This document shows, piece after piece, positions 3,184-62,973 of a DNA stretch of 64,000 nt. The translations under genes and the position numbers were made by a program. Origin of the DNA: Bacteroidales bacterium. Its GTDB lineage: Bacteria > Bacteroidota > Bacteroidia > Bacteroidales > F082. Position 1 is the first letter of the stretch. Every line of letters begins with the position of its first letter. Under the pieces are notes generated by a model. The model searched no databases and was not told the origin of the DNA. It saw only the letters and a list, made by a program, of their open reading frames with translations. Location: assembly GCA_017538795.1 (NCBI GenBank), contig JAFYIE010000093.1:52125-116124 (forward strand). Reading direction: 5' to 3'.

Positions 3184-3232
3184 TTTGAAATTTGAAGTTT
3201 GAAGTTAGCAGTTGTTCAGTTAGTCAGTTTAA
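3184..3232. repeat. 7-bp repeat array (TTTGAAG/TTAGCAG type)
   Basis: Directly after the upp stop codon come units TTTGAAA, TTTGAAG, TTTGAAG, TTAGCAG, TTGTTCA and a degenerate remainder, all in 7-bp register. It fills most of the gap between upp and the symporter gene. Confidence 0.7.
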
Positions 3233-4610: not shown

Positions 4611-4612
4611 AG

Positions 4613-4660
4613 TTAGGAGTTAGAAGTTAGTAGTTAAATAATTTCTAACTTCTAACTAAT
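4613..4660. repeat. 7-bp repeat array forming an inverted repeat (TTAGAAG type)
   Basis: Left arm units TTAGGAG, TTAGAAG, TTAGTAG follow the symporter stop codon; the right arm CTAACTTCTAACT (4645-4657) is the exact complement of 4618-4630, giving a 13-bp stem with a 14-base loop. There is no U-tract, so terminator function is unproven. Confidence 0.75.
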
Positions 4661-4673
4661 AAAACCAATTTTT

Positions 4674-5420
4674 ATGGATAATTTCAAGCGTTTTATGACT
4701 TTTTCGCGTGGCGAACGCATTGCAATCATTACTATCGTGTCGATAATTGTTATCATATTGATTGCCAAATACTTAATTATTTCAAATCCTCCAAAACGAA
4801 CGTATTTTTTTCATGATTTGGATTCGATTATTGAACGTAGGAATGCGATGCTGGATTCGATTAGGATTGCTGATTCGATTGAGAAGCAGACTGCCAAACA
4901 GAATCAGATTCCTCGCTACGCTCGGAATGACAGAGCCGTCATTTCGAGTGAACCTCGAGCGAAGAGAGAGGGTAATCGAGAAATCTCCGAGATTTCTCCA
5001 CTTCCTGCGGTCGGTCGAAACGACGTGTTAATCGACATCAACACTGCCGACACCACATTATTGAAACAGTTGCCAGGAATTGGCGGCGCTTACGCAAAAT
5101 GGATAGTGGAATATCGCGAAAAACTTGGCGGATACTGCGAGACAGAGCAGCTGCTGGAGATTTATCGCATGGACACCACACGATACAACGAATTCAAAAA
5201 TCAAGTGAAAATCGATTCGACTTTTATTCCTAAAAGACTGAGAATCAACTCTGATACATTTAAGGTTTTGTTAAAGCATCCTTATCTCGAATTCGACGAC
5301 GTGAAGAAAATTGTGAATCACCGAGAACAAAAAGGAATGATTGCATCGTGGGAGCAACTCGTGAAAGTCGTTGGCGACGCAATCAATCCGAAATTACAGT
5401 ATTATATTGATTATCAATAA
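4674..5420 (+). CDS. Membrane-anchored helix-hairpin-helix (ComEA-like) protein with an in-frame repeat insertion
   Basis: A 248-residue protein with one transmembrane segment at residues ~16-36 and helix-hairpin-helix DNA-binding units from residue ~119: INTADTTLLKQLPGIGGAYA followed by a second HhH-like unit ending at residue ~185, and a further partial copy near the C-terminus (HPYLEFDDVKKIVNHRE). This matches ComEA-type proteins that bind double-stranded DNA at the cell surface during uptake, though many Bacteroidota copies have no tested role. Residues ~78-118 are low-complexity and Arg/Glu-rich and are encoded by a palindromic repeat element inserted in frame (see 4907-5024). The stop abuts the stop of the convergent CcsBA gene with no spacer. 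Confidence 0.75.
   Translation: MDNFKRFMTFSRGERIAIITIVSIIVIILIAKYLIISNPPKRTYFFHDLDSIIERRNAMLDSIRIADSIEKQTAKQNQIPRYARNDRAVISSEPRAKREGNREISEISPLPAVGRNDVLIDINTADTTLLKQLPGIGGAYAKWIVEYREKLGGYCETEQLLEIYRMDTTRYNEFKNQVKIDSTFIPKRLRINSDTFKVLLKHPYLEFDDVKKIVNHREQKGMIASWEQLVKVVGDAINPKLQYYIDYQ
4907..5024. repeat. Palindromic interspersed element inside the HhH coding region
   Basis: About 118 bases made of three alternating half-units: GATTCCTCGCTACGCTCGGA plus ATGACA, then an inverted GTCATTTCGAG half, then a GAGATTTCTCCACTTCC half ending GGTCGAAACGAC. It shares its core (GATTCCTC...CGGAATGACA and the inverted GTCATTcCGAG) with the intergenic copy at 22235-22319. Translation stays open through it and adds ~40 residues to the host protein. 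Confidence 0.7.
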
Positions 5421-9700: not shown

Positions 9701-9708
9701 AGCAATTG

Positions 9709-9757
9709 TTTTTTCGGTGCAAATATAACAAAAATCATTATATTTGCACCGAAAAAA
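9709..9757. promoter_or_regulatory. Divergent promoter pair inside a 20-bp perfect inverted repeat
   Basis: Bases 9709-9728 and 9738-9757 are exact reverse complements (arms TTTTTTCGGTGC... and ...GCACCGAAAAAA) separated by 9 bases. Each arm contains a -7 box: TATATTTG at 9739-9746 for the rightward gene (ATG 9766) and its complement at 9720-9727 for the leftward lipoprotein (ATG 9700). Arms of this length go beyond the promoter consensus and could bind a shared regulator. Confidence 0.7.
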
Positions 9758-9765
9758 GCATCTTT

Positions 9766-11490
9766 ATGTCAAAGATTGACAATTCTCAACCAACCCGCAA
9801 AATTCGCAAAGTGTCGTTGCCTAAAGACGGCGAACGACTGCTCGAGGTCTTCGCGGCAGCGAAAGGCATCATGGCGGCGGATGGGAACGGGAACCAGTGG
9901 ACTGACGGCTATCCGTCGCTGGAGATTGTACAGGCTGACATAGAGAAAGACGGCGGATTTGTGGTCGAAGACGATGGGAAAATAGTGGCTTATTTCGCAT
10001 TTCTGCACTCGCCAGAACCGACATACGACAAGATTTATGACGGCAAATGGCTCGACGACACGAAACCTTACCACGTGATACACCGCATCGCGAGTTTCCC
10101 CAAAGTGCATGGTATCTTCCAGAGTATCATGGAGTTCTGCTTCGCAAGGGAACGCAACATCCGCATCGACACGCATCGCGACAACAAAATAATGCAGCAT
10201 AACATCCAGAAATTTGGATTCAAATATTGCGGCATCATACATCTCGCCAACGGCGACGAACGTTTAGCATATCAGAAAATGACAGAAAAGAAAAAACTTT
10301 CCCTTACCGCCCAAATCGGCATCGCCCTCGTGCTGGCGGTGATAGCTGGCGTGCTGCTGCGCAACCAGGCTGATTTCGTCAATGAATATATCAAACCGAT
10401 TGGCGCGATCTTCCTTAACTTATTGAAATTCATCGTGGTGCCACTGGTGCTATTCTCAATAATGGCAGGCATTCTTTCGATGAACGACATCTCGAAAGTG
10501 GGCAGGCTTGGACTCCGCACCTTAATTTATTTTATAACGACAACCCTTTTCGCGGTGACGCTAGGACTCGTCGTGCCAAGTCTGGTGAAAGGCTTTCTCC
10601 CGACAATCCACATCAGCACGGAAGCCATTGCAGAAGCCGTCGAGACGCCTCATCTGACGATGATGGACCAGATAGTCGCAATGTTTCCCGACAACCTCCT
10701 TACGCCGATCAACTCGATGGCGATGATGCAGGTCATTGTGATTGCCCTGTTTTTCGGCATAGCAATGGTGCACGTTGGCGAAAAAGGCGCGATGGCGCGC
10801 AAGGTGACGCTCAGCTTCAACGACGTGGTGTGCAAGATTTTGGAATATATCATGGCTTTGGCCCCTATCGGTGTGTTCTGCATGCTTACACCAGTGGTGG
10901 TTGAAAACGGTCCGTCGGTGCTTGGCTCCTACGCGGCGCTGGTGGCTTTGGCATATTTCTGCTTTGCAGTACATGCTGGCTTGGTTTATTCTTCAGCAGT
11001 ATGGTTTCTGGGCGGTCTGTCACCACTGAAATTCTTCAAAGGCATGCAACCAGCCATGCTGTTCGCCTTCTCAAGTGACTCGTCAGTGGCGACACTGCCT
11101 TATTCCATGCAATGCACCGAGAAACTTGGCGTCAGCAAAGACATCGGGCGTTTTGTGCTGTCGCTGGGTGCGACCATCAACATGGACGGCGTAGCCATCT
11201 ATCTCGGCGTCGCGTCGGTGTTTATGGCGAACTGCTGCGGCATCGACCTCTCCATGAGCCAGTATATGGCAATAGCGTTCGCTTCAACAATAGCTTCCAT
11301 CGGAACGCCGGGTATCCCTGGAGGTAGCTTGGCGCTGATGGCGATGGTGTTCGCGTCGGCAGGAATCCCTGTAGAATGTGTGGCAGTAGCGGCAGGCATC
11401 GACCGAATCATCGACATGGGACGCACCGTGATGTCGGTCACCGGCGACGCATCTTGTGCCATCGTGATGCAAAAACTATCTAAAGTCTAA
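9766..11490 (+). CDS. Fusion: GNAT acetyltransferase domain + dicarboxylate/amino acid:cation symporter (DAACS)
   Basis: A 574-residue single frame. Residues 1-171 form a GNAT-like N-acetyltransferase domain (GGFVVEDDGKIVAYFAF, then IHRIASFPKVHGIFQSIMEF as the acetyl-CoA region, then HRDNKIMQHNIQKFGFKYCG and GDERLAYQK, a typical GNAT C-terminus). Residue 172 is a Met beginning a full 403-residue glutamate/aspartate symporter: SSDSSVATLPYSM, GATINMDGVAIYLG, GTPGIPGGSLALMA and DRIIDMGRTVMSVTGD are the DAACS hairpin and TM7/TM8 motifs. Known DAACS members import acidic or neutral amino acids with Na+ or H+. The join is in frame with no stop between the two. The frame extends upstream into the promoter, so ATG 9766 is chosen. 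The last codons (L-S-K-V-stop) come from a 7-bp repeat array. Confidence 0.85.
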   Translation: MSKIDNSQPTRKIRKVSLPKDGERLLEVFAAAKGIMAADGNGNQWTDGYPSLEIVQADIEKDGGFVVEDDGKIVAYFAFLHSPEPTYDKIYDGKWLDDTKPYHVIHRIASFPKVHGIFQSIMEFCFARERNIRIDTHRDNKIMQHNIQKFGFKYCGIIHLANGDERLAYQKMTEKKKLSLTAQIGIALVLAVIAGVLLRNQADFVNEYIKPIGAIFLNLLKFIVVPLVLFSIMAGILSMNDISKVGRLGLRTLIYFITTTLFAVTLGLVVPSLVKGFLPTIHISTEAIAEAVETPHLTMMDQIVAMFPDNLLTPINSMAMMQVIVIALFFGIAMVHVGEKGAMARKVTLSFNDVVCKILEYIMALAPIGVFCMLTPVVVENGPSVLGSYAALVALAYFCFAVHAGLVYSSAVWFLGGLSPLKFFKGMQPAMLFAFSSDSSVATLPYSMQCTEKLGVSKDIGRFVLSLGATINMDGVAIYLGVASVFMANCCGIDLSMSQYMAIAFASTIASIGTPGIPGGSLALMAMVFASAGIPVECVAVAAGIDRIIDMGRTVMSVTGDASCAIVMQKLSKV

Positions 11491-11528
11491 GGTCTAAAGT
11501 CTAAGGTCTAAAGACTAATGTCTAAAAT
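11480..11528. repeat. 7-bp repeat array, seven units of CTAAnnn
   Basis: Exact register: CTAAAGT, CTAAGGT, CTAAAGT, CTAAGGT, CTAAAGA, CTAATGT, CTAAAAT. The stop TAA of the plus-strand transporter lies in unit two and the stop TAG of the minus-strand rhomboid gene lies in unit six, so this array ends both convergent genes. Confidence 0.85.
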
Positions 11529-12213
11529 ATCTCGGCTGCGTCAGCTCTTCTTTTGGAGGCTCGGGGACATCCCAATAAGGGTCTTCATCGTCATTTTCGT
11601 TTTCGTCTTCGTTTTCGTCATCTTTTTCTCGTTGAGGACCCTCTTTGCGATAGACGATGGCGAGCGCAACGCCCATGATGAATCCTGAGAGATGCCCTTC
11701 CCAGGAGATATGATTTTCGATGGCATATTTAGGATAAAGTCCCCAAATCAAACTTCCGTAAAGGAAAATCACGAGAAACGAGACGATGACAAGGCTTTTG
11801 TTGCGTCTGATGAAGCCGCTGAGCATCAGGAAAAACGCCAAACCATAAATCAAGGCGCTGGCTCCAATGTGAACGCCGCCTCGTGCACCGCACCATGTCA
11901 GCAAACCGGTTGAGAACATCAAAAGAAGGCTTATCTTGGTGGCTATTGGCTTGTAGAAATAATAAAGACAAGCTCCTAACACTATGATTGGCAAGGTATT
12001 AGCATAAAGATGACTCCAGCTTCCATGAAGGAAATGGAACAAGAAAATGCCAAGAATGCCGTCGGCTTGCAACGGCTTGATGCCGAGAAACGATAAGTCA
12101 AGATGAAAGACCACCTCGACGCATTTTACCAGCCAAATGATGACGACAAACGCCAGCGGGACTATAAAACTGCGCAGAAGCCGGTTTCTCTCATCTTTGA
12201 CATCGCTGTCCAT
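11515..12213 (-). CDS. Rhomboid family intramembrane serine protease
   Basis: A 232-residue protein with about six membrane helices. It has the family landmarks: HLYAN (His68, Asn72; oxyanion side), the nucleophile motif GASA (Ser119) and the catalytic His174 in GHLSGF. Rhomboids cleave transmembrane proteins within the membrane; the substrate is unknown. The C-terminus is an acidic, Asp/Glu/Asn-rich cytoplasmic tail (about residues 198-215). Its ATG overlaps the purE stop (TGATG), so it is the second gene of a purE-rhomboid operon. The last residues and stop codon fall in a 7-bp repeat array shared with the convergent transporter gene. Confidence 0.88.
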   Translation of the reverse strand: MDSDVKDERNRLLRSFIVPLAFVVIIWLVKCVEVVFHLDLSFLGIKPLQADGILGIFLFHFLHGSWSHLYANTLPIIVLGACLYYFYKPIATKISLLLMFSTGLLTWCGARGGVHIGASALIYGLAFFLMLSGFIRRNKSLVIVSFLVIFLYGSLIWGLYPKYAIENHISWEGHLSGFIMGVALAIVYRKEGPQREKDDENEDENENDDEDPYWDVPEPPKEELTQPRYFRH

Positions 12214-13974: not shown

Positions 13975-15402
13975 ATGATGAATTACCAGTATTACAGCGG
14001 CGTCGCCGTTCCTGTCTTTTCGCTGCGGAGCGAGGACGGCTGCGGCATCGGTGAGTTTCTCGACTTGAAGAAGCTCGCCGACTGGTGTGCTGCGACAGGT
14101 TTGAAGCTCATTCAGATTCTGCCGATTAACGACACCACCACCGACGGCGGCTGGGGCGATTCATATCCTTATAAGTCGATAAGTACCAAAGCGTTACATC
14201 CGATTTATCTCAATGTTGAAAAGGTCGAAAAACTGAAAGACGAGAACGACATAAAACGTTTTCAAGAGCTGAAAAAAGAGCTCAACGCCAAGGAATTTGT
14301 AGATTATCCTGAGGTTTTCAAAGCCAAGATGGATTATCTTAAAAAGGTGTATGACCAGAAACGCGGTAAGAAACCTGATTTTTACGAGTTTCTGCAACAG
14401 CATTGCGACGCTCAGCTCACCGAAGCCGTTGATTATCTGCATTCTAAGGGTATCATGCTGAAGGGCGACCTGCCCATTGGCGTGAACCGAGAGAGCGACG
14501 ATGTTAAACAGAATCCGCATCTTTTCAACCTGAATATGGAAACCGGCGCTCCGCCTGACGGCTTCGCGCCTCAAGGCCAAAACTGGGGCTTTCCTACATA
14601 CAACTGGGCAGCGATGGAGGCTGAAGGTTTCCAATGGTGGAAAGAACGCGTCGCTTGGTTCAAAAAATATTTCGACGCCCTGCGCATCGACCATATCCTT
14701 GGATTTTTCCGCATCTGGGAGATTCCAAAAGGCAGTCCGGATGCCAGCTACGGCCATTATTCGCCGGAAAACCCGAGATTGTGGGAGATTGAGGGACGGA
14801 AAAGGTTGTCAACAATATTTGATTTGCCAACCGTAGAGAGGCACGGCCGTGCCTCTCTACAAACGGACAAACCGCTGTTAATCTGTGGCGAAGACCTCGG
14901 CATGGTGGCGCCGTGTGTGCCGGGCGTGATGCGTGAATTAGGCATCCTCAGCCTCGAAGTGCAGCGTATGCCAAAACAGAGTGGTCGCCCGTTCAGCGAC
15001 CCGCGCGAGAACCCGTATCTGAGCGTCAACACCACAGGAACGCACGACATGCCTACGATTCGCGGATGGTGGGAACAAGACCGTACATTATCAGCACGTT
15101 TCTACCACGAGATGCTGAAACATACGGATAATCCGCCGTATTTCTGCGAGCCATGGGTGTGCCAGGAAATCGTTGAGCAGCACATGAACTCAAGTTCACA
15201 ATGGGTCATCCTCCCGATTCAGGACTATATCGCGATAGACGGCAACTTCCGTTGGGATAACACCTGGGACGAGCAAATCAACGAGCCAGCCGACCCGAAA
15301 TGGCGCTGGAAATACAGAATGCACCAGAGCGTGGAGGCATTACTAAAAAATGAAAAATTGACATTGACATTAAAGAAAATGATAAAGAATTACAGCCGTT
15401 AG
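13975..15402 (+). CDS. malQ: 4-alpha-glucanotransferase (GH77), short form with a palindrome-coded insertion
   Basis: A 475-residue amylomaltase-type enzyme that transfers alpha-1,4-glucan segments. It opens with VAVPVFSLRSEDGCGIGEF and has all three GH77 catalytic acids: nucleophile Asp239 in RIDH, acid/base Glu306 in GEDLG and Asp358 in GTHDMPT. Many Bacteroidales MalQ proteins are ~900 residues with N-terminal CBM20 starch-binding domains; this one lacks them. Between the nucleophile and the acid/base the spacing is 67 residues, longer than the ~47 I recall for Thermus MalQ; about ten of the extra residues (VERHGRASLQ) are coded by a perfect 28-bp palindrome at 14833-14860. ATG 13975 is immediately followed by another ATG (13978). 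The stop TAG is the first codon of a 7-bp repeat array. Confidence 0.88.
   Translation: MMNYQYYSGVAVPVFSLRSEDGCGIGEFLDLKKLADWCAATGLKLIQILPINDTTTDGGWGDSYPYKSISTKALHPIYLNVEKVEKLKDENDIKRFQELKKELNAKEFVDYPEVFKAKMDYLKKVYDQKRGKKPDFYEFLQQHCDAQLTEAVDYLHSKGIMLKGDLPIGVNRESDDVKQNPHLFNLNMETGAPPDGFAPQGQNWGFPTYNWAAMEAEGFQWWKERVAWFKKYFDALRIDHILGFFRIWEIPKGSPDASYGHYSPENPRLWEIEGRKRLSTIFDLPTVERHGRASLQTDKPLLICGEDLGMVAPCVPGVMRELGILSLEVQRMPKQSGRPFSDPRENPYLSVNTTGTHDMPTIRGWWEQDRTLSARFYHEMLKHTDNPPYFCEPWVCQEIVEQHMNSSSQWVILPIQDYIAIDGNFRWDNTWDEQINEPADPKWRWKYRMHQSVEALLKNEKLTLTLKKMIKNYSR
14833..14860. repeat. Perfect 28-bp palindrome inside malQ
   Basis: The left half GTAGAGAGGCACGG is exactly complementary to the right half CCGTGCCTCTCTAC with no spacer. 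It is in frame and open. A related intergenic element (GTAGAGACACG...) occurs at 57431-57460. Confidence 0.85.
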
Positions 15403-15482
15403 CCATTAGCCACTAGTCATTAGGATTGTTCTTCCGACAACAACTAATGGCTAATAGCTAATGGCTAATAGCTAATGGCTAA
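15400..15482. repeat. 7-bp repeat array, facing arms TAGCCAT ... CTAATGG
   Basis: Left arm TAGCCAT, TAGCCAC, TAGTCAT starts at the malQ stop codon itself (TAG 15400-15402). The right arm at 15444-15482 is CTAATGG, CTAATAG, CTAATGG, CTAATAG, CTAATGG, CTAA. The arms are complementary and could form a long stem. Confidence 0.85.
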
Positions 15483-18936: not shown

Positions 18937-18978
18937 CTTTCAACTTTCAACTATCAACTTTCAACTGTTAACTTTCAA
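18937..18978. repeat. 7-bp repeat array (CTTTCAA type)
   Basis: Six units: CTTTCAA, CTTTCAA, CTATCAA, CTTTCAA, CTGTTAA, CTTTCAA. On the coding (minus) strand this is TTGAAAG repeated between the yidD stop and the S41 gene start, in the middle of an operon. Confidence 0.8.
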
Positions 18979-18981
18979 CTG

Positions 18982-19215
18982 TCATGGTACTGGGTCATAA
19001 CCTGAGCCGCCCCAGGGGTTACACGATGCCACTCGTTTTATCGTCAGCCAGCCGCCTTTGATTGCGCCGTACTTGCGAATCGCCTCGATGCTGTAGTTGG
19101 AGCATGTCGGGGTGTAGCGGCAGTTGCGTCCGATGAAAGGAGAAAGCGTGTACTGATATATTTTTATCAGCAAAATCAAGAAGTTAGCCGGCAGTTTTAT
19201 AATGAATTTTATCAT
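18982..19215 (-). CDS. yidD: Membrane protein insertion efficiency factor
   Basis: A 77-residue protein with the YidD core: [30 protein letters not shown] and [16 protein letters not shown] (three conserved Cys). YidD sits at the inner face of the membrane and helps YidC-dependent insertion. It overlaps rnpA by 4 bases, matching the common rnpA-yidD order near yidC. Confidence 0.93.
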
Positions 19216-22346: not shown

Positions 22347-23546
22347 ATGAAGATATTAGTTTTAAATTGCGGTTCGTCATCAATTAAGTATCAGTTGATT
22401 GAGATGGACGAGAAGAACCACTCGGTATTAGCCAAGGGTTTGTTGGAGCGCATCGGCCTCGAAATGGGCGAATTCACCCACAAATGGAACGGACAGAAGC
22501 ACTACGAACAGCTTCCTATCCCGAACCACACAGAGGGTATCAAGATTGTGCTTCAAGCACTTACAAATAAAGAATACGGCGTCATCAGCGACCTGAAAGA
22601 AATCAAAGCTGTCGGTCACCGTGTGGCACACGGCGGAGAGAAGTTCACTCACAGCGTCCGAATCGACGACAACGTCATCAACATGATTAAGGATCTCTGC
22701 GACCTCGCTCCATTGCACAACCCAGGCGCTCTTCAGGGCATCGCGGCAATGCAGGCAGTGCTTCCGGGCATCCCGATGGCAGCAGTGTTCGACACATCGT
22801 TCCACGCCACCATGCCGCCAGAGGCATATCTCTACGCTATTCCTTACGAATACTATGAGAAATACCGTGTACGTCGCTACGGATTCCACGGCACAAGCCA
22901 CAAATACGTCGCTGAAAAAGCCGCTGAATATGTCGGCAAAGACTGGAAAAACACGAAAATCGTCACATGCCACCTCGGCTCAGGCGCATCTATCGCAGCA
23001 GTTGAAAACGGCAAGTCGGTGGAGACATCAATGGGCTTCACCCCTGTCGAAGGCCTCGTGATGGGCAGCCGCACCGGCGACCTCGACCTTGGCGCTTTCA
23101 TGTACATCATGGACAAGGAAGGCTACAACACCAAGGAGATGAACACTTTGGTGAACAAGAAGTCGGGACTCATCGGCATCACCGGTAACTCGCAGGATAT
23201 GCGCGACGTGCGTGCAGGCCGTGATGCTGGCGACGAGCGTTGCACCTACGCCTTCAACATGTTCGCACACCGCGTAAAGAAATACATCGGCGCTTACGCA
23301 GCCATCATGAACGGCATGGACGTCCTCGTGATGACAGGCGGCATCGGCGAAAACGCATGGTTTATGCGTGAGGCCATACTCGAAAACATGGAGTTCTTCG
23401 GCATCAAGATCGACAAGAAGCTGAACGAGACCATCATGGGCGACGCAGCCGTCATCTCAACACCTGACTCAAAGGTGAAGGTGGTTGTATATCCTACAGA
23501 CGAGGAATATATGATTGCTAAGGATACGTTTGATTTGGTCAAATAG
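22347..23546 (+). CDS. ackA: Acetate kinase
   Basis: A 399-residue enzyme making acetate and ATP from acetyl phosphate and ADP. N-terminal phosphate-binding VLNCGSSSIKYQL (residues 4-16), HRVAHGGEKFTHS, the FDTSFHATMPPEAYLYA segment (~residues 148-165), GFHGTSHKYVA and TGGIGENAWFMRE near the C-terminus are all diagnostic. Partner of pta. The stop TAG is the first codon of a 7-bp repeat array. Confidence 0.96.
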   Translation: MKILVLNCGSSSIKYQLIEMDEKNHSVLAKGLLERIGLEMGEFTHKWNGQKHYEQLPIPNHTEGIKIVLQALTNKEYGVISDLKEIKAVGHRVAHGGEKFTHSVRIDDNVINMIKDLCDLAPLHNPGALQGIAAMQAVLPGIPMAAVFDTSFHATMPPEAYLYAIPYEYYEKYRVRRYGFHGTSHKYVAEKAAEYVGKDWKNTKIVTCHLGSGASIAAVENGKSVETSMGFTPVEGLVMGSRTGDLDLGAFMYIMDKEGYNTKEMNTLVNKKSGLIGITGNSQDMRDVRAGRDAGDERCTYAFNMFAHRVKKYIGAYAAIMNGMDVLVMTGGIGENAWFMREAILENMEFFGIKIDKKLNETIMGDAAVISTPDSKVKVVVYPTDEEYMIAKDTFDLVK

Positions 23547-23603
23547 CCATTAGCCATTAGTTGTTAGCCATTAGAGCTCTAACTAGTGGCTAATAGCTAA
23601 TGG
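23544..23603. repeat. 7-bp repeat array with facing arms (TAGCCAT ... CTAATGG)
   Basis: TAGCCAT, TAGCCAT, TAGTTGT, TAGCCAT, TAGAGCT, then CTAACTA, GTGG, CTAATAG, CTAATGG. It starts at the ackA stop codon (TAG 23544-23546), has an AGAGCTCT palindrome at its centre and ends 3 bases before the stop of the convergent PAS gene. Confidence 0.85.
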
Positions 23604-23606
23604 CTT

Positions 23607-26705: not shown

Positions 26706-27884
26706 ATGAAGATTTTCGTATTATTACCAAGGATTCCGTGGCCGCTTGAGAAAGGCGACAAGCTCAGAGCTTACAACCAAATCAAGCAGTTGGCGAAAAA
26801 CAACGAAATAATTCTCTGCGCCCTGAACGACAACAAAAAAGTCGACAAGCAAGCGGCCTTTCAGGCGATGCAGCCATTCTGCGCTTCAATAAACTTCATC
26901 GATCTCCCTAAAATAGGCATACTTTTCAATGTTTTCAGGTCGTATCTGCTCGGCTTGCCGATACAATGCGGCTATTTCTACAGCTCGAAGGCAAAGAAGA
27001 AGATACATCAACTCATCGAGCACCACAAGCCCGACATGCTTTTCGGACAGTTGTTACGTGTGGCGCCTTATCTTCATAAAGTCAAAATCCCGAAGACCAT
27101 CGACTACCAAGACGTTTTCTCGATGGGAATGAAACGCAGAGCCGAGATAGCGGGCATCTTCACGAGGCCGTTTTTCGAGATGGAATACAACCGCTTGAAG
27201 AGATACGAGAACAAGATTTTCGACGAGTTCGACGTTAAGACCATCATCAGCGAGCCTGACCGCGCCAACATCGACCATCCCGACAAAAATAAAATACTCA
27301 TAGTGCCGAACGGCGTCGATCACGACTATTACAAGCCGTTGGAGCGTGAGAAAAAATACGACATCGTATTCACCGGCAACATGGGATATGCGCCCAACGT
27401 CAACGCAGTGGAGTTTTTGGCTTATGAGATCATGCCGAAGGTGTGGGAAGATTTCCCGAACGCGAAGCTGTATATCGCCGGCGCCCAGCCCGACATGAGA
27501 GTTAAGAAAGTGGCTTGCGACAACATCATAGTGAGCGGCTGGATCGACGACATGCGTGAGGCATACGCCCAGAGCCGCATCTTCATAGCGCCGATGCGCA
27601 TCGGAACAGGACTGCAGAACAAGCTTCTCGAGGCAATGTCGATGAAGATTCCGTGCATCACCACGTCATTGGCCAACGGGTCGCTACATGCCGTCAACGG
27701 GAAGGAGATTTTGGTCGACAACAGCTCATCGGAGCTCGCCGCCGACATCGTTTTCCTTTTGAGACATCCCGACAAAGCCGCTGAGATAGCAGAAGAAGGA
27801 TATAATTTCGTGAACCGCGTCTACGACTGGGGAGCAGCGACGAAGATTATGGAAGACGCGATGATAACAGTTTTACAAAGTTAG
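26706..27884 (+). CDS. Glycosyltransferase family 4 (GT-B fold), second copy
   Basis: A 392-residue enzyme starting on the base after the previous stop (TAA then ATG). Start IFVLLPRIPWPLEKGDKLRAYN is typical of GT4 enzymes; the C-terminal domain has YDIVFTGNMGYAPNVNAVEFL, AKLYIAGAQP and RIGTGLQNKLLEAMSMKIPCITT. It shares architecture with the preceding gene and probably adds a neighbouring sugar on the same glycan. The stop TAG belongs to a 7-bp repeat array. Confidence 0.88.
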   Translation: MKIFVLLPRIPWPLEKGDKLRAYNQIKQLAKNNEIILCALNDNKKVDKQAAFQAMQPFCASINFIDLPKIGILFNVFRSYLLGLPIQCGYFYSSKAKKKIHQLIEHHKPDMLFGQLLRVAPYLHKVKIPKTIDYQDVFSMGMKRRAEIAGIFTRPFFEMEYNRLKRYENKIFDEFDVKTIISEPDRANIDHPDKNKILIVPNGVDHDYYKPLEREKKYDIVFTGNMGYAPNVNAVEFLAYEIMPKVWEDFPNAKLYIAGAQPDMRVKKVACDNIIVSGWIDDMREAYAQSRIFIAPMRIGTGLQNKLLEAMSMKIPCITTSLANGSLHAVNGKEILVDNSSSELAADIVFLLRHPDKAAEIAEEGYNFVNRVYDWGAATKIMEDAMITVLQS

Positions 27885-27960
27885 TAGTTAGAAGTTAGCA
27901 GTTTGAAGTTAAACTAAACATCCGACAACTGCTAACTACTAACTGCTAACTACTAACTAA
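27881..27960. repeat. 7-bp repeat array with facing arms (TTAGTAG ... CTACTAA)
   Basis: Left: TTAGTAG, TTAGAAG, TTAGCAG, TTTGAAG. Right (27929-27960): CTGCTAA, CTACTAA, CTGCTAA, CTACTAA, CTAA. The first unit contains the stop codon of the upstream glycosyltransferase; the arms can pair. It fills the whole gap to ettA. Confidence 0.85.
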
Positions 27961-29641: not shown

Positions 29642-31261
29642 ATGAAAAAACTTTTTACTACATTTATCGTTATTTTATTGAGTATCAATGCATTTGCATT
29701 GGACGTTTGGGACGGCAGTGCTTCACCTTGGACGCATGGCAGCGGCACTTCCAGTAATCCTTATCTCATTGAAACGGCAGAGAACCTCGCCTATCTCGCC
29801 CAGAAAGTCAACGAAGGCTATCAGGCACAAGGCATGGCGGTCTTTAAATACACTTATTTCCTGTTGACCGACGACCTTGACTTGAACAACATCAATTGGA
29901 CCCCGATCGGAAGTATTAACATGAACATGCAAGGCTTTTATTTTGCCGGAGTTTTCGACGGCTGGTATCACAATATCGACCATCTGAAGATTCAGACAAA
30001 TGCGGATGTCTGCGGCCTCTTTGCAGGCTTGGGCGGAGAGCAAGGACCTCCACCAGGAGACAGAACTGGAGTTATTAAGCATCTATCTGTGACCAACGGC
30101 AACATCACATCGACAGGCACCGGTGCGGCAGGCATCGTGGGTGGAATGGCTGGCGAAGCATTTGTCTATCAATGCAGTTTTTCCGGCACCATCAGCGTTA
30201 GCAACAACGGTTCTTATTGCGGCGCAGGCGGTATTGCAGCGGCCATAGCAGAAAACTCAGGCATCGATGAGTGCTCGTTCCATGGCAGCATCACAGCAAC
30301 CAACAACGGAGGCTTCACTGGAGCGGCAGGAGCGGGCGGCATCGTCGGTATCGCCATGAATCAAGCGACGATAAGCCAATGCTATAACACTGGCACCATC
30401 ACAGGCAGCGCATTTATGTTAAGTGTAGCAGCAGGCATCGTGGGCGCAACATTGCAGGAAAATAACGTGAGCGTTCGAGATTGCTACAACGTTGGCACAG
30501 TGAACGCAGGAACAAAAGGAGGCATCTTCGGCATGGTGAGCCCTATCAACCCGACGAAAGACGAAGTATCTATTGACGTCAGCAACTGCTTCTACCTCAA
30601 CACCTGCGGCGGAACCACCAACTACGGCACCTCAAAAACATCTGATGAGATGAAGACCGAGCAGTTCAAGAACCAAATCGACATGAGTTCACACGCTTTT
30701 GTGATGGACAACGGCACCAACAACGGCTACCCTATCCATGCTCTCACTGGTTTCATAATTTACGAAGCCAAAGATGTCACAGCACATACAGCAACGCTGT
30801 CGGCCGATCTACATCCAGGAAATGCTTCATTCTCAAGGGCTTACTTTTTCTATGATAACGAAGCTGGCACATATTATCATGAGGTTGAAATCGGCACCGA
30901 AGGCTATGTGGAAGCCATCATTGAAAACCTCGAGCCAAACACAGCCTACATGTTTTCCATGAGCGCAGAATATTCCGACGGTGGTTTCGTCGGCTTCAGC
31001 CCACACTGGTTCATGACTTCCGACAACGAAGGAATTGCCGAAATCTCAAATTCAGATATTTGCATCTACCCTAACCCGACTTCAGATTTCATCCGTATCG
31101 GAAACGTTGAGCCTCAATTTGTTACAATCTATTCCATTGACGGAAGATTGGTAAAAACAGTTGAAAATGCCAACGTTGTTGACGTAAGGGATCTGAACAA
31201 AGGGGTGTACCTTATTAATATAGACGGAGCTATTAAAAAGTTTTTAGTCTTTAGTTACTAG
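29642..31261 (+). CDS. Secreted GLUG-repeat protein with a T9SS type A sorting domain
   Basis: A 539-residue exported protein. Signal peptide MKKLFTTFIVILLSINAFA; then Gly-rich beta-helix repeats resembling GLUG motifs (AAGIVGGMAGEA, AGGIAAAIAENSG, AGGIVGIAMNQATISQC, AAGIVGATLQENN), each followed by a Cys-containing loop; then a fibronectin III-like module (~residues 380-460); and a C-terminal type IX secretion domain from ~residue 475 (CIYPNPTSDFIRIGN ... SIDGRLVKT ... LNKGVYLINI). GLUG proteins are surface adhesin-like; the ligand is unknown. The SprA channel it would need is in this window. The last residues (VFSY) and stop come from a 7-bp array. Confidence 0.85.
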   Translation: MKKLFTTFIVILLSINAFALDVWDGSASPWTHGSGTSSNPYLIETAENLAYLAQKVNEGYQAQGMAVFKYTYFLLTDDLDLNNINWTPIGSINMNMQGFYFAGVFDGWYHNIDHLKIQTNADVCGLFAGLGGEQGPPPGDRTGVIKHLSVTNGNITSTGTGAAGIVGGMAGEAFVYQCSFSGTISVSNNGSYCGAGGIAAAIAENSGIDECSFHGSITATNNGGFTGAAGAGGIVGIAMNQATISQCYNTGTITGSAFMLSVAAGIVGATLQENNVSVRDCYNVGTVNAGTKGGIFGMVSPINPTKDEVSIDVSNCFYLNTCGGTTNYGTSKTSDEMKTEQFKNQIDMSSHAFVMDNGTNNGYPIHALTGFIIYEAKDVTAHTATLSADLHPGNASFSRAYFFYDNEAGTYYHEVEIGTEGYVEAIIENLEPNTAYMFSMSAEYSDGGFVGFSPHWFMTSDNEGIAEISNSDICIYPNPTSDFIRIGNVEPQFVTIYSIDGRLVKTVENANVVDVRDLNKGVYLINIDGAIKKFLVFSY

Positions 31262-31292
31262 AGTCTAACGACTAATGACTAAAGACTTAACT
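31244..31292. repeat. 7-bp repeat array ending two convergent genes
   Basis: TTAGTCT, TTAGTTA, CTAGAGT, CTAACGA, CTAATGA, CTAAAGA, CTTAACT in exact 7-bp register. It contains the stop TAG (31259-31261) of the plus-strand cargo gene and, on the other strand, the stop TAG (31281-31279) of deoC, and codes the last residues of both proteins. Confidence 0.85.
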
Positions 31293-36782: not shown

Positions 36783-36784
36783 TT

Positions 36785-36815
36785 CTAATGTCTAATGTCT
36801 AAAGACTAAAGTCTA
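36785..36815. repeat. 7-bp repeat array of CTAAnnn units
   Basis: CTAATGT, CTAATGT, CTAAAGA, CTAAAGT, then CTA. The final CTA (36813-36815) is the TAG stop of the minus-strand phosphofructokinase gene. Confidence 0.8.
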
Positions 36816-56910: not shown

Positions 56911-56945
56911 AGAAGCCAGAAGACAGTAGTCAGAAGACAGAATAA
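56911..56945. repeat. 7-bp repeat array (AGAAGAC type)
   Basis: AGAAGCC, AGAAGAC, AGTAGTC, AGAAGAC, AGAATAA, in 7-bp register, starting 6 bases after the PFOR stop codon. A divergent sequence class but the same period as the TTAGnnn arrays. Confidence 0.65.
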
Positions 56946-58434: not shown

Positions 58435-58508
58435 TCTTTATTTTTTAGTCTTTAGACGTTAGATTATAGACTATATACAACTAAGGTCTATTGACTAACG
58501 TCTAAAGC
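58432..58508. repeat. 7-bp repeat array with facing arms (TAGTCTT ... CTAACGT)
   Basis: Left from the stop codon at 58432: TAGTCTT, TATTTTT, TAGTCTT, TAGACGT, TAGATTA. Right (58481-58508): CTAAGGT, CTATTGA, CTAACGT, CTAAAGC. The right arm codes the C-terminal A-L-D-V-S-Q and stop (TAG at 58490-58488) of the minus-strand antiporter. Confidence 0.82.
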
Positions 58509-62340: not shown

Positions 62341-62864
62341 TGGACAAGAAAGAACTTCGCGCAAACATCAAACTTCTCAAGAAACAGCACACCAAAGAGC
62401 AACTTCTTGAGCAGTCGGAAACTATTTTATCCAAACTTGAGCAGCATCCTGATTTCCAGAACGCTCATATCGTAATGATTTACAGCGCTTTACCTGATGA
62501 GGTTCAGACCCAAGCTTTCCTCGAAAAATGGCGTCATAAAAAGAAAATTATCTTACCAACAGTTGTTGGAGACGATATAATTCCTGTTGAACTTGCTGAA
62601 AACACTGGCTTTGCCGTCGGCGATTTCAATATTTTGGAACCTCAAAACGTGCCTTACACCGGCGATTACGACCTTATAGTGGTTCCTGGCGTTGCCTTCG
62701 ATAGAAACGGAAACCGTATCGGCCGCGGCAGAGGCTATTACGACCGCTTTTTATGTAAACATCTGAACGTCAAACGAATAGGAATTTGTTTCGATTTCCA
62801 ACTTGTCGATGAGGTTCCTACCGAGCCGAATGATATTAGAATGGATGAAGTGATTTCGTTGTAG
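62340..62864 (+). CDS. 5-formyltetrahydrofolate cyclo-ligase
   Basis: A 174-residue enzyme converting 5-formyl-THF and ATP to 5,10-methenyl-THF. The family signature is the C-terminal VVPGVAFDRNGNRIGRGRGYYDRFL (split: VVPGVAFDRNGNRIG and RGRGYYDRFL, ~residues 112-136), preceded by the N-terminal basic substrate region KKELRANIKLLKKQH. It fits with glyA downstream (convergent) as part of folate one-carbon metabolism. ATG 62340 is chosen over an upstream GTG. The stop TAG is the first codon of a 7-bp repeat array. Confidence 0.92.
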   Translation: MDKKELRANIKLLKKQHTKEQLLEQSETILSKLEQHPDFQNAHIVMIYSALPDEVQTQAFLEKWRHKKKIILPTVVGDDIIPVELAENTGFAVGDFNILEPQNVPYTGDYDLIVVPGVAFDRNGNRIGRGRGYYDRFLCKHLNVKRIGICFDFQLVDEVPTEPNDIRMDEVISL

Positions 62865-62973
62865 TCTTTAGTCATTAGTTGTTAGTCTTTAGTAATCTGA
62901 CAAAATAAAAAGAGCTGCATTCGCAGCTCTTTTTGTATATTAGAACTAAAGTCTAAGGTCTAAAGTCTAATTA
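62862..62973. repeat. 7-bp repeat arrays flanking a terminator (TAGTCTT ... CTAAAGT)
   Basis: Left (62862-62896): TAGTCTT, TAGTCAT, TAGTTGT, TAGTCTT, TAGTAAT, the first unit being the stop of the cyclo-ligase gene. Right (62946-62973): CTAAAGT, CTAAGGT, CTAAAGT, CTAATTA; the last TTA is the TAA stop of glyA on the minus strand. A true terminator lies between the arms. Confidence 0.85.
62907..62934. terminator. Bidirectional rho-independent terminator
   Basis: AAAAAGAGCTGC (62907-62918) and GCAGCTCTTTTT (62923-62934) form a perfect 12-bp stem with a 4-base loop; A-tract on one side and T-tract on the other allow use by both convergent genes. Confidence 0.87.

Follow-up and report, generated by a model that had tools for sequence, protein, structure and literature searches.

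Tandem heptamer arrays at stop codons in a Bacteroidales genus: placement, orientation and change between species

Tandem arrays with a period of seven bases lie in the gaps behind genes of a Bacteroidales genome (G000; 2.48 Mb in 122 contigs, 93.5% complete), where they touch stop codons more often than random placement within the same gaps predicts. Array-free orthologs in related genomes mostly end at the same position, and from this comparison an array appears mostly to begin on, and to take over, a stop codon that was already present. We favor, with a probability of about 0.6, the reading that the arrays are heptamer microsatellites of the STRR type, produced by slippage and hairpin-templated copying and bounded by selection on the coding sequence. 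The STRR heptanucleotide repeats of cyanobacteria are short tandem heptamers used for strain fingerprints. Heptamer arrays are found in several phyla, and we know of no accepted origin for them.

Arrays of the window

The window is the whole stretch of 64 kb that was analysed, positions 52125-116124 of contig C30 in G000. Genes were called with a codon-based script (363 genes in 464 kb), in which the choice of start codon does not affect the stop positions. The closest named relatives of its AckA are from Bacteroidales metagenome genomes, mostly of the ruminant gut. The arrays and the two genes that flank the headline array are as follows.

11479..11526, no strand: headline array (TCTAAAG/TCTAAGG)n in a convergent gap (sequence, TRF and period scan)
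9706..11490, plus strand: SDF-family Na+:dicarboxylate symporter (Pfam PF00375)
11515..12213, minus strand: rhomboid protease (Pfam PF01694)
3184..3213, plus strand: TTTGAAG-type array directly behind the UPRTase stop (period scan, relatives)
4611..4655, plus strand: inverted pair TTAG..CTAA behind the SNF transporter stop (period scan, TTAG/CTAA run scan)
15394..15482, plus strand: inverted pair after malQ (stem-loop of -39.4 kcal/mol, z -8.0)
18937..18984, minus strand: TTGAAAG-type array that starts on the TGA of yidD (period scan, relatives)
23544..23606, plus strand: inverted pair after ackA (stem-loop of -35.9 kcal/mol, z -7.2)
27879..27960, plus strand: inverted pair after a glycosyltransferase gene (stem-loop of -33.9 kcal/mol, z -7.9)
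31244..31282, no strand: short inverted pair between the GLUG-protein gene and deoC (TTAG/CTAA run scan)
36784..36815, minus strand: array that starts on the TAG of PFK (period scan, relatives)
56911..56942, plus strand: AGAAGAC-type period-7 array, not of the TTAG type, behind the pyruvate:ferredoxin oxidoreductase gene (TRF)
58445..58505, no strand: inverted pair between a hypothetical gene and the Na/H exchanger gene (TTAG/CTAA run scan)
62862..62970, no strand: arrays at both convergent gene ends, 5-FTHF cyclo-ligase and glyA (TRF, TTAG/CTAA run scan)

The headline array, which the first-pass annotation had placed at 11480..11528, is real; TRF describes it as 48 bases at 11479-11526, with 6.9 copies of period 7. 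Both stop codons are inside it, as had been claimed: the plus-strand transporter ends in the TAA at 11488-11490, and the minus-strand rhomboid in the TAG at 11515-11517. The units, described as TTAGnnn/CTAAnnn, are not uniform, with TCTAAAG, TCTAAGG and ACTAATG alternating as 14-mers. The final codons and the stop of the transporter lie inside array units, and G064, the only ortholog fetched that has no trace of an array, ends two residues further on. The last residues of the transporter are probably array-encoded. The rhomboid stop (after YFRH) is at a position common to four array-free relatives (G015, G077, G075 and G062), and the protein ends 3-7 residues later in G064, G072, G066 and G017. 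From stop to stop, the gap has 24 bases in G000, 10 in G026, 10 in G005 and 3 in G011, or 3 bases plus 3, 1, 1 and 0 units, respectively. This change in 7-base steps agrees with the expectation that unit number varies among sister species. In G064 the two genes overlap and the array is absent. No good fold was obtained for either strand of the headline array (z of -1.1 and 0.4).

Arrays had been described for at least twelve gaps of the window, and ten distinct gaps have TRF rows at period 7, in addition to 31244-31282 and 58445-58505. The description of all arrays as TTAG/CTAA does not hold for three gaps, which are mainly TTTGAAG (3184), TTGAAAG (18937) and AGAAGAC (56911). The stop is located within a unit, as claimed, for MalQ (where the TAG is unit 1), AckA, the glycosyltransferase, the GLUG protein, DeoC, PFK, the Na/H exchanger and 5-FTHF cyclo-ligase. 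The hypothetical gene at 58 kb also has its stop in a unit, and the next unit there reads TTTAT. At glyA the array begins just past the TAA. Many of the window arrays are halves of inverted pairs, a feature that had been missed (see below). A terminator-like hairpin lies between the two arrays of 62862..62970. Known RNA families were rejected as an identity, with no match in the window in Rfam at the gathering score.

A period-7 array follows the UPRTase stop in seven of eight relatives, and its units differ among them (GTTTACn, GTTTAGA, ATTGATA, TTTACTG). In relatives, the same TAA of the SNF transporter has other repeats behind it, or weak or no arrays. The region behind this stop (window 4611-5024) contains heptamers in G000, an 8-base array in G072, and palindromic GGCAAGGCATGCCTTGCC or GTCATTTCGA repeats in other relatives; this place seems to be a general landing or tolerance site. 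Palindromic repeats are also present in the gene of a small HHH-motif protein, in a variable region at about 4925-5024 inside the ORF at 4674-5420. They are of the CATTTCGA type here and of the GGCAAGGC type in G026 and G005, and are apparently translated through in frame. In G011, malQ takes its last residues and its TGA stop from an unrelated GTCATTTCGA...AGAAATCTC palindrome.

Abundance of period 7

A motif-free period scan (score of 14 or more) finds six arrays at period 7 in the window. Over periods 2-30, non-multiples of 7 have none except two arrays at period 12, and three first-order Markov resamplings of the window gave no arrays at periods 6, 7 and 8. In 464 kb of G000 there are 33 period-7 arrays, compared to at most three at any non-multiple of 7 (periods 3-30). 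The pattern TTAGnnn x4 has 134 matches in the G000 genome, and its reversed control has none. At least one match is present in 35 of 35 other genus genomes searched, in 10 of 24 genomes from other families of the order, and in 68 of 198 genomes drawn from the phylum (at least 90% completeness, G000 included). The reversed control is sometimes nonzero, and it exceeds the pattern in some other-family genomes (84 vs 3 in G051), which carry GATT-type heptamers of their own. In G027, GAA accounts for 45 of the 66 TTAGnnnTTAG, across 15 sites. Such units common to many loci of one genome hint at spread between loci.

Placement at stop codons

The expectation for each array was obtained by sliding it at random within its own gap. 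In 464 kb of G000, 25 of the 34 arrays bordering a 3′ end touch the stop (within 3 bases), with 14.8 expected (P=2.5e-5), and the phasing to stops is non-random, as proposed in the first-pass annotation. For G000, G017 and G027 pooled, 49 of 97 arrays touch the stop (29.8 expected, P=1e-6). One array at a stretch edge was left unplaced in the 464 kb, and four in the three-genome placement. The counts are 13/15 in gaps below 60 bases (12.0 expected), 14/24 in gaps of 60-100 bases (9.6 expected, P=0.047), and 22/58 in gaps of 100 or more bases (8.2 expected, P=3e-6). G027 alone has 15/39 arrays at stops (8.0 expected, P=0.004), and G017 alone has no significant excess (9/24, 6.9 expected, P=0.19). 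The stretches of these two genomes were picked for holding arrays, which biases their density and not the placement. Contacts with start codons are about as frequent as random placement predicts (6/84, 4.3 expected). Random insertion was dropped as an explanation, on the basis of the stop-touching excess over random placement in the same gap.

The heptamers are mostly intergenic. None of the 33 arrays in 464 kb of G000 is wholly in a called gene and 146 of their 1111 bases are coding. In the three genomes, arrays wholly within genes number 0 (G000), 3 (G017) and 12 (G027), compared to 102 in gaps; of the 16 in-gene arrays counted, one in G017 was an N-run and was removed, with the gap counts unaffected. 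The 12 in-gene heptamers of G027 (for example L054 and L056) include CAACAG/GACTGTT types. Divergent gaps hold 3 of the 33 arrays in 464 kb of G000, one of these being an A/T run.

The stop codon recurs at exactly +7 in 15 of 26 touched genes of G000 and in 16 of 32 touched genes of six other genomes, compared to 7% and 5% of untouched genes, respectively. Recurrence at other shifts is 0-4%, save for shifts 4 and 11 in G000 (12% and 8%). An array that overlaps a stop produces the +7 recurrence by definition, and the informative part is that the arrays extend that far. The similarity of the last four coding bases to the next unit is somewhat above that of shuffled pairs (1.54 of 4, compared to 1.02; G000, P=0.0045). 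TAG makes up 30 of 51 touched stops, compared to 133 of 697 over all genes (Fisher P=5e-11).

Part of the coincidence with stops is arithmetic, because 7 is coprime to 3 and TTAG/CTAA has a stop on each strand. As a result, any frame entering a TTAG/CTAA array ends within three units. MacGregor makes the same point for TAACTGA, which has stops in all frames (PMC4679880).

Three other repeat families served as controls, scored within 12 bases of stops. By this measure, the heptamers of seven genomes give 61/106 (45.5 expected). The CATTTCGA repeats are also enriched (17/27, 9.8 expected), and the AGAGACG/CGTCTCT motifs are not (5/20, 8.0 expected), the latter being a short motif with 103 of 124 matches in genes or unplaced. 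The third family has two usable elements.

Orientation

Arrays at their own stop mostly have the GT (TTAG) strand in sense. By motif, the ratios are 21:3 in G000, 29:1 in six genus genomes and 2:1 in four other-family genomes; by composition, they are 18:4, 27:5 and 3:4. In the four other-family genomes, 3 of 60 arrays could be assigned to a stop. Arrays located up to 20 bases ahead of a start have the CA strand in sense, with ratios for the same three groups of 4:0, 11:4 and 4:0 by motif (none significant alone) and 4:0, 13:5 and 4:0 by composition. Summed over the three groups by motif, the GT sense prevails at stops by 52 to 5 and the CA sense before starts by 19 to 4. The totals for the genus are 50:4 and 15:4 by motif, and 45:9 and 17:5 by composition. 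The GT-sense bias at stops is firm within the genus.

The stop-codon arithmetic cannot account for this bias, because CTAA would end frames as well. Slippage together with selection does not predict it either, since CTAA stops equally and TAA is the commonest stop. Rehm and colleagues give the same orientation rule for Xanthomonas (PMC4692102). In the part of MacGregor's paper used here (PMC4679880), TAACTGA mostly points to starts, consistent with the orientation in our genomes. On the other hand, the 13 TAACTGA sets that overlap stops have the other strand in sense, which is inconsistent with it.

Inverted pairs and folding

Among 65 TTAG/CTAA gaps in three genomes, 27 hold an inverted pair, (TTAGnnn)n-loop-(CTAAnnn)n, and none has only the reverse order; a gap holding both orders would count among the 27. 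Eighteen of these pairs are in G000 and nine in G017. The other 38 gaps have runs of a single kind, including all 18 in G027, where no inverted pair was found. For successive period-scored arrays of all genomes, GT is followed by CA in 21 cases to 1 by motif and in 24 to 5 by composition, and this order is strong, but not absolute.

In G000, the two arms of a pair are more alike than under permutation (P=1.5e-4, 18 pairs); for the nine pairs of G017, P=0.065. The three paired gaps that were folded have energies of -34 to -39 kcal/mol (z -7.2 to -8.0), and T runs come after some of the right arms. In the gap that follows the glycosyltransferase gene, the period is 7 in both arms of the G000 pair and 8 in both arms in G026. 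This joint change of period is the strongest evidence for copying of one arm from the other.

The loop core ATTAGRATTGTTC has two copies in G000, both in array loops, at two loci. It is rare, with one or two copies each in 13 of 40 genomes, and the reversed control matches a few as well. No non-heptamer 8-mer among the top listed is common to three or more loops in G000 or G017; in G000, the 8-mers that recur in at least three loops derive from the heptamers, and G017 has no such 8-mers.

Very long heptamer arrays are present in G059, from another family (L071, 5525-5718; L067, 7338-7493). They have GT and then CA units, which are not plainly complementary, and the order can therefore hold without a matching hairpin.

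Stop codons of array-free orthologs

Fifteen window genes have an array at or just behind the stop, and 11 of them had orthologs among twelve relatives. Orthologs with period-7 and period-8 scores under 9 were taken as array-free (a few have weak traces), and a stop was at the same position if there was no length difference beyond the aligned end. Of 49 array-free orthologs, 38 end at the same position, 8 within 3 residues, and 3 further away. Their stops are TAA in 34, TAG in 9 and TGA in 6, while TAG is used by 11 of the 15 source-genome genes with an array. Among the 23 orthologs that do have an array by these scores, 22 keep the same end position. The arrays had been thought to supply the stop codons; with 38 of the 49 orthologs ending at the same place without one, and 34 of the 49 using TAA, that idea is not borne out, and an array would mostly begin on, and take over, the pre-existing stop. 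The exceptions are DeoC and the GLUG protein, whose last residues (SL and FLVFSY, respectively) are encoded by the array at 31244..31282. The Glug profile scores 20.2 bits on the latter protein, just under the cut-off of 20.5.

The ackA stop is TAG here and TAA in all eight relatives compared; DLVK is the AckA C terminus in each of these relatives, including the one that has an array. Of 40 ackA loci (39 readable), only L080 and L081 have a 7-base array behind the stop, and only L086, a named relative, has an 8-base array, which is palindromic. For PFK, GAATAA in the array-free G017 is followed directly by a terminator hairpin. The order is GAATAG, array, and hairpin in G000 and G026, placing the array between the stop and the terminator.

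The suggestion that arrays grow by slippage from a TAG-ending seed agrees with MalQ, the rhomboid and the glycosyltransferase, where gene ends in array-free or sister genomes resemble the unit. It does not agree with PFK, where the first unit shares only the TAG. Since the PFK units are unlike the gene end beyond this TAG, local duplication cannot be the origin there.

Change between species

The unit sequence differs between species. Likeness was compared for 31 stop-side arrays of 15 genes, with permuted labels as reference. Arrays at the same locus in different genomes are alike (0.466 vs 0.299 permuted, P=0.001), and arrays within one genome are alike across loci more weakly (0.356 vs 0.302 permuted, P=0.014). 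Because the same-locus likeness is stronger, the arrays appear to be inherited and to drift in place. Hairpins are present in gaps that have 1-2 bases, or overlapping genes, in relatives.

Origin of the arrays

In the favored reading, an array would nucleate and grow in the gap directly behind a gene, by replication slippage in 7-base steps. The two-armed form would arise by strand switching at a hairpin, with each arm copied from the other. Selection on the protein would halt growth toward the gene, and an array reaching the ancestral stop would absorb it as its first unit, often converting TAA to TAG. What was observed is the register, the 7-base steps, the conserved stop position, the arm matching of G000 and the TTAG-then-CTAA order; the molecular events (slippage and template switching) and the boundary (selection) are inferred. 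The arrays need have no function; the long stem-loops may act as 3′ mRNA structures.

A dispersed, palindromic heptamer element of the REP/MITE kind, copied between loci and landing at gene ends with a TAA/TAG junction, could also give the genome-wide favorite units (GAA in G027), the likeness of arrays across loci of one genome, the occurrence of both ATTAGRATTGTTC copies of G000 in array loops, and the TTAG..CTAA order. However, likeness is stronger at the same locus between species, the loop core is rare, and the loops share no other such 8-mer among the top listed. The Y1 transposase is the enzyme tied to REP sequences (RAYT). It (PF01797) has no match in G000, at 93.5% completeness, or in the array-rich G005, G017, G027 and G034, and it is less numerous in genomes with denser arrays (Spearman -0.34, P=0.04, 36 genomes). 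RAYT/REP mobility was dropped on these grounds, and we consider such an element a rather unlikely source. Selection of the stem-loops for transcription termination or 3′ mRNA stabilization, which would account for their location behind stops and their palindromic form, is unlikely. The stable folds of the three paired gaps, the joint change of arms between species and the few arrays in divergent gaps (3/33) are consistent with it, but 38 of the 65 gaps are single-kind, the headline array does not fold, several gaps hold both an array and a canonical terminator, and hairpins also occur where relatives have gaps of 1-2 bases or an overlap. With a crude detector, canonical terminators are equally rare with an array (4/37 stops) and without (38/524), and replacement of canonical terminators was dropped for this reason.

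Selection of arrays as backup stops, ending translation in all frames on both strands, is highly improbable. Period-7 TTAG/CTAA does close six frames within 21 bases by arithmetic, and no array is wholly in a gene in G000. In comparison, G011 has GTTTACn at the same UPRTase stop, a unit without a stop on the sense strand, several arrays of G055 are 100 or more bases away from both gene ends, and the CTAA type would serve equally, yet is rare at stops. It is also doubtful that stop codons are the priming or junction site, with hairpin-templated copying from TAA/TAG that sends GT heptamers outward, CA heptamers being mirrored, in one class that spans Bacteroidales, Xanthomonas and perhaps other phyla. 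A universal orientation rule is less likely because the composition scores of other families and the stop-overlapping TAACTGA sets oppose it. If the stop-priming reading were true, heptamer arrays would be one general class with a shared mechanism.

The genus provides many orthologous gaps for comparing the units, in sequence and number, as well as arm matching and stop codons. In these comparisons the stop usually predates the array, the period can change jointly in both arms, and strand order within the genus goes with the gap, which makes the origin of the repeat testable. Annotators should be aware that a repeat encodes the final codons of some proteins.

Comparison with known repeats

The link to stop codons is not new. 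The first-pass annotation knew of no such description, and overlap of heptamers with stops was reported in 2015 for TAACTGA and GGGAATC. Together, the sections used of the two 2015 papers contain heptamer arrays, their intergenic place, the stop overlap, all-frame stops, the orientation and inverted pairs (PMC4679880, PMC4692102). The register, the conserved stop in array-free orthologs, the arm matching and the joint period change were not found in the literature covered, in which subscription journals were largely outside the scope and papers were represented in part.

REP sequences are likewise palindromic, extragenic and of high copy number; on the other hand, their building block is a small palindrome of 20-40 bases, according to the portion of the source used (PMC3733652). 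No REP-like conserved palindrome core was found among the loop 8-mers of G000 and G017.

The Xanthomonas GGGAATC and Beggiatoaceae TAACTGA heptamers, as described in the sections used, have much of their placement in common with the arrays here. GGGAATC and the GGGGA(C/T)T of Nostoc are G-rich and quadruplex-forming, in contrast to the units here, which are TTAG, GTTA or TTGA (PMC4692102). The traits of the GGGAATC kind, with the G strand in sense behind stops and antisense before starts, and with convergent pairs, are found in this genus. A stop in repeat register and ortholog stop positions were not found reported for GGGAATC in the part of that paper used.

TAACTGA also has 7-base units with stops in all three frames, and is present in Beggiatoaceae, Cyanobacteria and five Bacteroidetes, some Bacteroidetes having long arrays (PMC4679880). 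Thirteen sets overlap the stop of the upstream ORF, and indels between two Cyanothece are mostly 7-base steps. There are differences as well, as far as the used part of that paper extends: TAACTGA is one fixed unit, mostly just upstream of starts, with one inverted repeat only, and its stop-overlapping sets have the CA strand in sense, opposite to the stop arrays here. MacGregor proposes it as a translational regulator (PMC4679880). Units of TCAGTTAN were seen only in G026, at period 8, and the units here are TTAGnnn, TTTGAAG and TTGAAAG. On sequence, the arrays here are best classed as a variant of the STRR-type heptamers, and not as the same repeat. They do not amount to a new system, but to a cleanly measured variant of a kind of bacterial repeat that has received little study.
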